This document shows positions 11,558 to 40,310 of a DNA stretch of 64,000 bases, piece after piece. A program made the translations under genes and the position numbers. Numbering within the stretch: the first letter of the stretch is position 1; the number at the start of each line of letters is the position of its first letter. Origin of the DNA: Xenococcaceae cyanobacterium MO_188.B32 (lineage in GTDB: Bacteria; Cyanobacteriota; Cyanobacteriia; Cyanobacteriales; Xenococcaceae). Under the pieces are notes generated by a model. That model had not been told where the DNA came from, searched no databases, and saw only the letters and a program-made list of their open reading frames with translations. The stretch lies in assembly GCA_030065635.1 (NCBI GenBank), contig JASJDJ010000004.1, forward strand, positions 1 through 64,000. Direction: 5' to 3'.

Positions 11558-13262
11558 AGAATTAAATGCGATCGCCTCTCGTGAACATCACAAACAACAA
11601 AAAACCTGTATTCGTTGCTGTACTGTCGGTGGATGTCTCTCAGCCAATGGATTAGCAGTAAAAGAGCAGCTAGAAAAAGCAGTAACCGAGGCGGGCTTAG
11701 GGAAAAAAGTAACAGTTGCTGGCGTTGGCTGTATGGGATTGTGTAGTCGAGGCCCATTAGTCAGAGTCGATCCCCAAGGAACTTTATACGATCGCGTAAC
11801 TCCCGATACCGCTTCTGAAATTGTGGCATCTGTAAATAATGATGCAGAGGCAATTCGCGAAGTGGAGGGGCTGTCTTTTGAGGAAACCTCAAAAGCTTGT
11901 ACGCCCCGTCCCCTAAAAATCTCCCCGTCTCAATATCAACCAAATAACCACCCTTTCTTTACCCAACAGTTAAAAATTGTTTTAGAAAATAGTGGCAAGA
12001 TCGATCCAGAAAAAATAGAAGAATATATTGCTGCGGATGGTTATCAAGGACTCGGCAAAGTTCTGCTAGAAATGACTCCAGAATCTGTAATAGAAACAAT
12101 TTCCCGCAGTGGTTTGAGAGGTAGAGGCGGTGCTGGATATCCTACGGGATTGAAATGGGCAACTGTAGCCAAGGCAAAAAGCGAACGCACCCTCGACAGT
12201 CGCTACAATGGGGGAAACCCCCACAACGCGCTGTCTCGCAAGTTTGTCATCTGTAATGCCGACGAAGGCGATCCCGGCGCGTTTATGGACCGTAGCGTCT
12301 TAGAAAGCGATCCCCATCGAGTCATAGAAGGAATGGCGATCGCTGCTTATGCAGTGGGAGCAACTCAAGGTTATATCTATGTGCGGGGAGAATATCCTCT
12401 CGCCATTAATCATTTACAAAAAGCGATTCGTCAGGCTAAGCGTTTGGGTTTATTGGGAAGTCAAATATTTGAGTCTCCTTTCGATTTCAAAATCGATCTG
12501 CGTATCGGTGCAGGAGCGTTTGTCTGTGGCGAAGAAACTGCTTTAATGGCATCAATTGAAGGAAAGCGTGGTATTCCTCGCCCTCGCCCTCCCTATCCTG
12601 CTGAATCTGGCTTGTGGGGTTGCCCTACCCTAATTAATAATGTGGAAACCTTTGCTAATGTTCCCACAATTATCCGTAAAGGTGCAGACTGGTTTGACCG
12701 TATCGGAACCGAAAAGAGTAAAGGAACTAAAGTTTTTTCTCTAGCAGGAAAAGTCTGCAATACAGGCTTAATTGAAGTACCAATGGGTACTACTTTACAG
12801 CAAATAGTCGAAGATATGGGCGGTGGTGTTCCCGATGGTGGTAAAGCTAAAGCCGTGCAAACAGGCGGTCCTTCGGGTGGATGTATCCCTGCTGCTGCTT
12901 TCGATACTTCTGTAGATTATGAATCTCTGACAGAACTAGGATCGATTATGGGTTCTGGTGGCGCGATCGTCATGGATGAAACGACCAATATGGTAGATGT
13001 CGCTCGTTTCTTTATGGAATTTTGTATGGATGAATCCTGCGGTAAATGTATTCCCTGTCGTGCTGGTACGGTTCAGCTTTATCAGTTATTAACCAAAATT
13101 AGAGAAGGCAATGCCTTTTTGACAGACTTAGAAAAGCTGGAAGAAATATGTGATATGGTTAAATACACTAGCTTGTGTGGGCTAGGACAATCGGCACCAA
13201 ACCCCGTTTTTAGCACTCTTCGCTATTTTCGCGATGAATATCTGGCATTGATTTCTGATTAA
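11547..13262 (+). CDS. hoxF: HoxF, FMN/NAD-binding diaphorase subunit with two in-frame palindromic inserts
   Basis: I chose ATG 11547 ([10 protein letters not shown]); the frame is open further upstream but that part overlaps hoxE. The order is an N-terminal thioredoxin-like [2Fe-2S] domain ([10 protein letters not shown], then GVGCMGLC), the NADH/FMN domain ([46 protein letters not shown]) and the [4Fe-4S] segment [13 protein letters not shown]...CGLGQ. At 571 residues it is nearly 40 longer than typical HoxF. The excess is a stretch around residues 107-120 in the interdomain linker and about 19 residues ([20 protein letters not shown]) between VAKAK and [10 protein letters not shown]. Both correspond to DNA palindromes. 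No frameshift or stop is present. No hoxU, hoxY or hoxH follows. Confidence 0.93.
11867..11907 (+). repeat. Palindromic repeat inside hoxF (copy A1)
   Basis: Outer arms GGGGC (11867-11871) and GCCCC (11903-11907) enclose a 9-bp inner stem, CTTTTGAGG (11875-11883) with CCTCAAAAG (11887-11895) and an AAA loop. The reverse complement of 40050-40090 matches nearly base for base, including GGGGCTGTCTTTTGAGG and TACGCCCCG. It encodes [13 protein letters not shown] in the HoxF linker. Confidence 0.85.
12194..12236 (+). repeat. Second, unrelated palindromic repeat inside hoxF
   Basis: An inner stem TGGGGG-AAA-CCCCCA (12209-12223) is flanked by GACAG (12195-12199) and CTGTC (12231-12235). The translated product is about 19 residues inserted just before the conserved [10 protein letters not shown] strand of the FMN site. 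GGGGGAAACCCCC-centred palindromes resemble dispersed intergenic repeats I know from cyanobacteria. No second copy is seen in this window. Confidence 0.75.
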
Positions 13263-39134: not shown

Positions 39135-39340
39135 AAAAGAGAAGAAATAAACGCTCGCCCGACAAATTTCTTAGGATTGGGAATTGCTTGCTTGTGGCTA
39201 CAATCTCCTATTGCTTTTACTACTGTAGGTATTGCTTCAATTATTGCCTCGATTGCTCGCCTACTTTCTCTTTTTATCGATCGCAGTTTTTCCATCAAAA
39301 ATGTTGGTGGTGTCTTTACCGAAGCAATCTTATACCAAAT
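39135..39340 (+). pseudogene. Fragment of a DUF4345-like membrane protein
   Basis: One frame without a start reads ARPTNFLGLGIACLWLQ, then FTTVGIASIIASIARLLSLF, IDRSFSIKNVGGVFTEAI. This is the GR-LS-ID and family-terminal pattern of DUF4345 proteins. Only the C-terminal half is present, and CTGCCTTCTGCCCTCTGCC-type filler follows at about 39393-39425. Confidence 0.4.
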
Positions 39341-39666
39341 CCGATTACCAAAGTATACTTTTCGACTGAGAGTATTAATTGAGCTCAAAAGCTTCTGCCT
39401 CCTGCCTTCTGCCCTCTGCCTTGACCTTGCTTTTAAGTATCGTATCTAAACAGGATTTGGTATTAGGAGCGATGCTGTTGTTAGGGAGCAATTTAAGCTA
39501 GAAAATAAGTGCATTAGAATTATTCTGAATGCACTCGGATGGATGATTCGGGTAAAGTCGATCGACTGTTTAATGATCGGAGAAAGAACAAACTGAATGT
39601 AAATAAACTTGAGAGCAAGCATGATAATCCGCACTACTCATCTCGGTATCATTCTGGAGTAAGATA

Positions 39667-40310
39667 TGATTTTTAGCTTTCCCGACGGGAAGCCCCAGAT
39701 CATATCGCTAGGGGCGGTTGATGTGGGACGGGGCGTTGCTATCGGGCGCAATGCGATTACGCCCACAGCCCCTCATGAAAGTCGGGGTAATGTTTATCGG
39801 TCATAGCTTGACATTTTTGACGCACAATTTTCATATAGCAAAGGTTTCAAGCGTTGTATAATGATTTCAAAACGGGGAAAGCCCGTAGTAAAAAAAACAG
39901 TGCCGTGACTCTGCGGTGATGACGGGTAAGTCTCCCTGAACAGCTACCAGACTGCCAAACCAACCCCGTAAACGAGAAAAGTAAATTTTCTGGATTAAAA
40001 AACGAGCGCATTGTACCGCTGGGTCGGCGGGAACGGAAACTGCCTGGGCGGGGCGTATAAACTTTTGAGGAAACCTCAAAAGACAGCCCCTTGCAATCAG
40101 AGCGTCGGGGGTATGGGATAACTTGAGGACACGGTTTTTGAGGGAACCTCAAAAACGTGAGATGTCCGTGTTGTTTCATATCTAGATGGTGGGTCAAAAA
40201 CCAGTAATGGAAGTAACCAGGAAAGCACTATCGTGAGGTAGTGAAGCCCAAACTGTACCGCGAAGCGGTCAGTGTGGGAGAGGTCACTAGGAAGAAGCAT
40301 GACCAAAAAC
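39667..40310. repeat. GC-rich block of palindromic repeats and an IS605-like right end
   Basis: This stretch is clearly richer in G+C than its neighbours and has no sustained reading frame. It contains GGGCG/CGCCC pairing near 39739-39759 and a copy of the hoxF palindrome at 40050-40090. A second TTTTTGAGG hairpin lies at 40134-40156 (GTTTTTGAGG-GAA-CCTCAAAAAC) and CACTA/TAGTG at 40226-40243. A long hairpin at 40247-40278 has CCCAAACTG/CAGTGTGGG outside and ACCGC-GAA-GCGGT inside, followed by GAGAGGTCAC, like IS200/IS605 right ends in cyanobacteria. It is either a decayed IS605-type element with its RNA region or a cluster of short dispersed repeats. Confidence 0.5.
40050..40090 (-). repeat. 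Palindromic repeat, intergenic copy of the hoxF insert (A2)
   Basis: Outer GGGGC/GCCCC and inner CTTTTGAGG-AAA-CCTCAAAAG (40062-40082) match hoxF 11867-11907 in inverted orientation. Identical blocks are GGGGCTGTCTTTTGAGG and CCTCAAAAG; differences are the loop orientation and a few bases beside TACGCCCCG. Confidence 0.85.

Follow-up and report, generated by a model that had tools for sequence, protein, structure and literature searches.

The GC-rich block at positions 39667-40310 of the window (the whole 64,000-nt stretch of DNA that was analyzed) is probably a nonautonomous IS200/IS605-type element without tnpB, in which the guide scaffold has been retained and a module termed X replaces the ORF, and which would act as a solo guide RNA with TnpA and TnpB provided in trans. 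Judged by its sequence, the block is a tnpB-less guide-RNA element, tnpB having been either lost or never carried, and it looks like a multicopy structured element of structurally intact appearance rather than random foreign DNA. Its parts, all read on the forward (+) strand, follow in the order of left-end hairpin, promoter-like block containing TATAAT, a module of the type X2, TnpB omegaRNA scaffold, and right-end hairpin ending in GTCAC.

Composition and Extent of the Block

The GC content of 39667-40310 is 0.488 as compared with 0.384 for the whole window, a value reached by only 1.1% of 644-nt windows, and the unusual, GC-rich composition reported in the first-pass annotation is thereby borne out. 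The same holds for its reading of the block as devoid of a reading frame: the longest mechanical ORF has 116 aa, and the five ORFs of the block that were tested against Pfam gave no match above cut-off, on which result a coding element is rejected at the sequence level.

When the block is compared by BLAST with the genome from which it comes (G000, 6.39 Mb), multiple copies are found of the promoter-like piece (39794-39870), of hairpins 1 and 2, and of the hairpin at the right end. In the loci L003, L010, L011, and L030 the promoter-like piece is accompanied by the right end at a distance of approximately 390-460 nt, by which the element unit is defined. Comparison with these siblings sets its span at about 39677 to 40287, i.e. 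611 nt, or 525 nt after subtraction of two 43-nt hairpins, so that the block as annotated is real but the unit within it is somewhat shorter. Repetition as a unit, which the annotation had proposed to examine by BLASTN, applies to the outer parts, the inner module being X1 in most siblings. Of the annotation's GC-rich block of foreign-looking composition the hairpins stand, and in place of a repeat nest there is a multicopy structured element. A further dispersed repeat lies nearby at 39327-39467; it has inverted ends (TATACCAAATCC ... GGATTTGGTATTA), is matched dozens of times in 11 relatives, and looks like a MITE.

The Omega RNA Scaffold and Its Separation from tnpB

The right half of the block is, by sequence and covariation, a recognizable structured TnpB omegaRNA scaffold (40013-40248) with two palindromes inside. 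The scaffold covariance model R2, the training set of which does not contain the window sequence, matches the 64-kb window once, at 40013-40248, with 57.8 bits and an E-value of 1.5e-12; this is the covariance search that the annotation had called for, and it agrees with the proposal that the block is the RNA part of a tnpB-type IS200/IS605 element without tnpB. In the tnpB-bearing loci L055, L051, L058, L159, L160, and L163 the scaffold overlaps or follows the 3' end of the tnpB ORF and from there extends as far as into the right end; the scaffold is thus homologous to the RNA overlapping the tnpB 3' end, and for other families annotated TnpB genes were matched.

An alignment of 29 scaffolds, seven of them labeled as tnpB-bearing, displays compensatory changes in 21 of the 30 predicted pairs. 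Conserved secondary structure is also evident from covariation when the 21 tnpB-less scaffolds are taken alone, with 95.8% of the cells paired and double changes in 21/30 pairs; none of 500 shuffles scored as high, and sliding of the partner lowered the pairing to 31-45%. The alignments A1, A2, A4, and A5 omitted the window itself as well as copies whose palindromic inserts would misalign. As judged by inspection, the predicted scaffold helices are retained in the block's own copy; hairpin 1 falls where the scaffold is unpaired, and the apical loop of the variable stem accommodates hairpin 2. The label "decayed", which had been attached to the element, does not fit with these retained helices, nor with the X2 core described below. 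The stem that precedes CTAG is longer in the tnpB-less scaffolds than in the seven tnpB-bearing ones (alignment A4), though only slightly longer in L094.

R2 has 45 matches in the block's own genome (E ≤ 0.01), and a census was made of the best 30 of these, with short upstream sequence (480-649 nt) for L229, L233, and L240. In nine of these a TnpB ORF overlaps the scaffold and in 21, including the block, there is none, so that solo scaffolds exceed tnpB-bearing ones among these 30 best of the 45 matches. No TnpB ORF is present within 1.45 kb upstream of the block's scaffold; no tnpB was thus found in cis, and the block is not a tnpB locus of the standard kind. Thirteen of the 21 tnpB-less scaffolds among the best 30 carry X1 as detected by a simple pattern, the block carries X2, and L212, which is the same locus as L146, carries an X1 that the pattern missed owing to an insert. 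X patterns are absent from all nine tnpB-bearing scaffolds of the same 30. L034 and L036 have tnpB directly behind a related promoter-like block, from which it follows that X stands in the position of the ORF.

RNA Modules in the Place of tnpB

The promoter-like block (39795-39862), which ends in TATAAT (39857-39862), is multicopy and shared with the tnpB elements L034 and L036. It is followed by X2 (39866-40012; core 39899-39978), a noncoding 5' domain in tnpB's place that is conserved in four genomes: 77 of the 80 core columns are identical across four elements from four genomes, as opposed to 21 of 68 columns in the promoter region and 23 of 46 in the right end of the same four elements. 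Such conservation is the pattern that selection on X2 would give. X2 is joined to the same scaffold type in L116 (G004), L117 (G014), and L118 (G011), and was found in only 4 of the 27 genomes of the family; beyond it, a search of 386 genomes gave a single 33-nt match (E 7e-4) that was taken as chance. The four copies are insufficient in number and in variation for a structure test by covariation, and single-sequence folding is unremarkable (z-scores of -1.27 and -1.93). The X1 covariance model R1 does not detect X2, and relatedness of the two modules is therefore not demonstrated. The module of L011 is a further variant, multicopy in G004 and G014. A shortened X2 copy occurs in L157 (G004:C224), where it lies with a TATAAT just 5' of a small ORF that reads like what we take to be PetM.

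X1, the commoner module, is present in most siblings, where it replaces the tnpB ORF, and covariation strongly supports its being a structured RNA family. An alignment of 27 sequences from several families contains 23 pairs in four helices with 94.5% of the cells paired and double changes in 18 pairs; since the structure was chosen from the same 27 sequences, the percentage leans toward it and the double changes are the stronger point. The covariation score of 0.499 compares with 0.188 for shuffles, none of 500 of which was as high, and slid versions paired at 29-43%. In a set of 386 cyanobacterial genomes drawn from across the phylum, R1 detects X1 in 52, belonging to 29 of 143 genera, often in many copies per genome, and one X1 genome listed only as "same class" has at least 10 copies. 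Searches of both modules against Rfam gave no match at gathering or permissive thresholds.

In other families X1 is followed by different scaffolds, with ends in GTCAC or GTCAA, and the scaffold regions that follow it match DNA annotated as TnpB genes on named plasmids. Elements composed of X1 and scaffold are located within unannotated DNA on plasmids of Dolichospermum, where a related X1 element is found in the cultured D. flos-aquae CCAP 1403/13F, and of Gloeocapsopsis; in Sphaerospermopsis such an element is overlapped on the opposite strand by a predicted "transposase" ORF without a Pfam match. These plasmid matches concern X1 elements of other families; the X1 element of the block's own genome matched no plasmid, and no phage matched an X1 element. 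A TnpB HMM built from 14 proteins of the own genome, which a very divergent TnpB could escape, found no TnpB within approximately 1.5 kb of the 30 X1 loci fetched, some of them shortened by contig ends, and only one in 38 further element loci, on the opposite strand of the L117 locus.

In five of 27 loci (L098, L162, L170, L176, and L177) the X1 core is preceded, at a distance of approximately 85-90 nt, by a small, divergently oriented ribbon-helix-helix-like ORF, the 27 being what was left of 31 loci tested after four in which the core pattern was not found were dropped; a similar ORF was noted at L108 and L109. All Pfam matches of these ORFs are below cut-off, and it is possible from their position that they represent a candidate regulator inside the element.

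Termini, Flanks, and Mobility

The left end (39677-39787) consists of an outer stem, CCCGAC/GTCGGG, followed by GAAGCCCC, an imperfect inner hairpin, and a nested palindrome, and is preceded by TTTTTAG (39670-39676), presumably both the left cleavage site of TnpA and the target-adjacent motif of TnpB; TTAG is found at the equivalent place in most of the siblings listed and in the tnpB-bearing L055. The right end (40242-40287) comprises GAAGCCC, the hairpin at 40247-40278, and GTCAC, and recurs up to GTCAC in the genomic copies, such that the IS200/IS605-like character ascribed in the annotation to this hairpin and the following GAGAGGTCAC is upheld. GAAGCC followed by a hairpin is found at both ends of the element, which places a short guide-like motif, GAAG, before each subterminal hairpin. 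By analogy with TnpB biology, the approximately 20 nt of the right flank (40288-40307) would form the guide segment.

The left-end type of the block is present in siblings and also in L065, where a gene for a Y1 transposase directly adjoins it; the ends are thus common to autonomous-type elements of the same genome, L065 with tnpA and L055 with tnpB. The most direct view of an insertion is provided by the 440-nt sibling L011, which interrupts a class II aldolase gene in antisense orientation. Its removal in silico restores a 256-aa ORF that aligns by tblastx, gap-free over 269 positions and with 55% identity, to the uninterrupted gene in a different genome; the left boundary of L011 follows TTAG, the right one follows GTCAC, and a target duplication is absent. 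An empty site for the block's own locus was not found among the relatives, in which the left side is not syntenic. The anatomy of the ends and of the insertion is that of IS200/IS605, as seen in sequence, and the block was presumably mobilized by TnpA in trans.

Palindromic Guests

The first-pass annotation described two TTTTGAGG hairpins, and both are present, at 40063-40081 and 40136-40154, although the palindromic inserts number three in total. Insert 1 (TTTTGAGGAAACCTCAAAA) occupies 40050-40092 and insert 2 (TTTTTGAGGGAACCTCAAAAA) 40126-40168; in the sibling G014:C46 exactly these two stretches, of 43 nt each, are missing, while in L003 the hairpin-1 unit is absent to within 2 nt and the region of hairpin 2 is represented by 6 nt. 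The arms of the class of insert 2 are also found in L005 and L009. The third insert (39727-39778; class GACGGGGC...GCCCCTCATGA) lies inside the left end, and its outer arms recur in L015, L027, and L055. By this comparison, the two 43-nt hairpins are independent mobile palindromes, constant in their outer arms and variable in the inner hairpin, and are guests of the element.

As had been noticed, hairpin 1 has a relative in hoxF, a class 1 palindrome at 11866-11911 (L028) in reverse orientation. The idea that it is a by-product of elements such as this one is countered by the precise absence from a sibling of both hairpins, which are thus separate insertions. The hoxF reading frame stays open through the palindrome, which is therefore probably translated. 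At least four classes of such small mobile palindromes can be distinguished. Their outer arms are conserved, whereas the inner hairpin varies while remaining perfectly paired, and one palindrome may be nested in another, as in the left end of L055, where a class-3 palindrome sits inside a class-1 unit; members also occur in L010, L030, L055, L090, L092, L148, and L005.

Proposed Mechanism and Alternative Explanations

In the proposed model, the promoter-like block would drive the synthesis of an RNA of approximately 420 nt or more, comprising X2, the scaffold, and then a guide from the right flank. An element without tnpB must, on this reasoning, produce its own guide RNA and borrow TnpB, and TnpB from tnpB-bearing relatives would bind the solo RNA in trans. 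Once TnpA has moved the element, TnpB would cut the empty donor site (TTTTAG plus guide), following which repair from a sister copy would restore the element. The X module might serve in RNA stabilization or processing, or in competition for TnpB, the tnpB mRNA no longer being the source of the RNA. The model fits with the promoter-like block, the covarying right-end scaffold, the TTTTAG flank, and the nine tnpB-bearing scaffolds of the own genome. It has to be noted that the three palindromes nested in the block could impair it.

It is unlikely, though worth weighing, that the block is instead a passive MITE or PATE, reduced to ends that TnpA moves in trans, with the scaffold and X persisting as inert remnants of a former tnpB element. 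The block does have IS605-type ends and no tnpB, and PMC7290912 describes IS605 derivatives of the ends-only kind in which the final portion of tnpB is preserved together with the right end. Inert leftovers are, however, not expected to show covariation of the scaffold within the tnpB-less set alone, covariation of X1 across families, and an X2 core whose conservation far exceeds that of either promoter block or right end. A rather small probability is also given to a model in which the solo RNA binds TnpB in trans for titration or regulation and not for guiding, with X blocking cleavage or repressing tnpB-bearing rivals. The confinement of X to tnpB-less scaffolds in the 30 examined (the best of 45) and the lack of a detected TnpB near the 30 X1 loci agree with it, as does the inhibition of cleavage by part of the TnpB mRNA that PMC10278001 describes for one studied TnpB. 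A mere decoy would not need the right-end junction, right flank, and TTAG flank of a guide-bearing element, all of which are kept, but mobility alone would likewise preserve the ends; the sequence features fit decoy or regulatory action nearly as well as they fit the trans-guide role.

That the 5' module is a self-splicing intron, as in IStrons, appears very improbable. The combination of IS605-type ends and structured 5' RNA does resemble IStrons (PMC4227781), but a permissive-threshold search of the window and of the elements at 18 loci against Rfam gave no intron match, although a group I intron was detected elsewhere in L027. Moreover, L011 is antisense in its gene, where splicing gives no help, and the conserved TATAAT is internal to the element; with no group I intron core found, the IStron was rejected as a candidate. 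The intron in L027 (2776-3026, minus strand; RF00028, 60.7 bits) is a group I catalytic intron outside the element.

Relation to Known Systems

A guide RNA located away from its nuclease gene, as here, is known from trans-acting IscB omegaRNAs and from ORF-less HEARO RNAs. The scaffold of the block differs from these in being of the TnpB type and at the right end, and an IscB/HEARO omegaRNA was rejected as a candidate, the block having no Rfam match at the gathering score or at E ≤ 5, with the HEARO model presumably included in Rfam.

TnpB makes its omegaRNA from its own mRNA and cuts beside a target-adjacent motif (PMC10278001, PMC10097598). The block shares with the omegaRNA (reRNA) of ISDra2-type IS200/IS605 elements (PMC8612924, PMC10097598, PMC10278001) the right-end scaffold, the presumed guide in the right flank, the T-rich left-flank motif, and the homology to the tnpB 3' end; it differs in the lack of tnpB in cis, its own promoter-like block, the extra conserved 5' module, and the longer variable scaffold stem. 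The nearest described system in the literature searched is a PATE-like relic in Halanaerobium (PMC7290912). Like the PATE and ends-only IS605 derivatives of that paper, the block is nonautonomous, has IS605 ends, and is presumably moved by TnpA in trans; unlike them, it keeps a full covarying guide scaffold and a conserved module, in many copies and genera. With IStrons (PMC4227781) it has in common IS605-type ends with an RNA domain, but no group I intron was detected, a sibling is inserted antisense in a gene, and there is an internal promoter-like block. The palindromes resemble the very small mobile repeats of SDR type of cyanobacteria (Elhai 2008, as cited in PMC4390886) in being small and precisely inserted into other sequences, and appear to differ from them in their 43-nt units with fixed outer arms and variable inner hairpin. 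The open-access PMC literature yielded no account of cyanobacterial tnpB-less omegaRNA elements with such a module, nor of its phylum-wide spread or of the excess of solo scaffolds, which is weak evidence as few subscription papers are covered there.

Implications

It may tentatively be suggested, at somewhat short of even confidence, that protein-free transposons with a solo guide RNA make up a class spread across the cyanobacterial phylum, a dedicated conserved RNA module (X1, X2, and variants), which is used with unrelated TnpB scaffolds, having taken the place of tnpB. The cis omegaRNA would thereby have become a trans guide or a regulator of TnpB, with parasitic guides outnumbering the nuclease genes that they exploit. 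X1 would add a structured RNA family that is absent from Rfam, and the whole would amount to a nested parasite system, the element living on the nuclease and the palindrome on the element. TnpB is the ancestor-type nuclease of Cas12, and it can be asked how its guide RNA separated from its gene. Here, guide scaffolds with a promoter-like block of their own and an extra conserved module are separate from tnpB in many copies and, provided that they are functional, would be natural trans-acting TnpB guides, a step toward the Cas12 arrangement.
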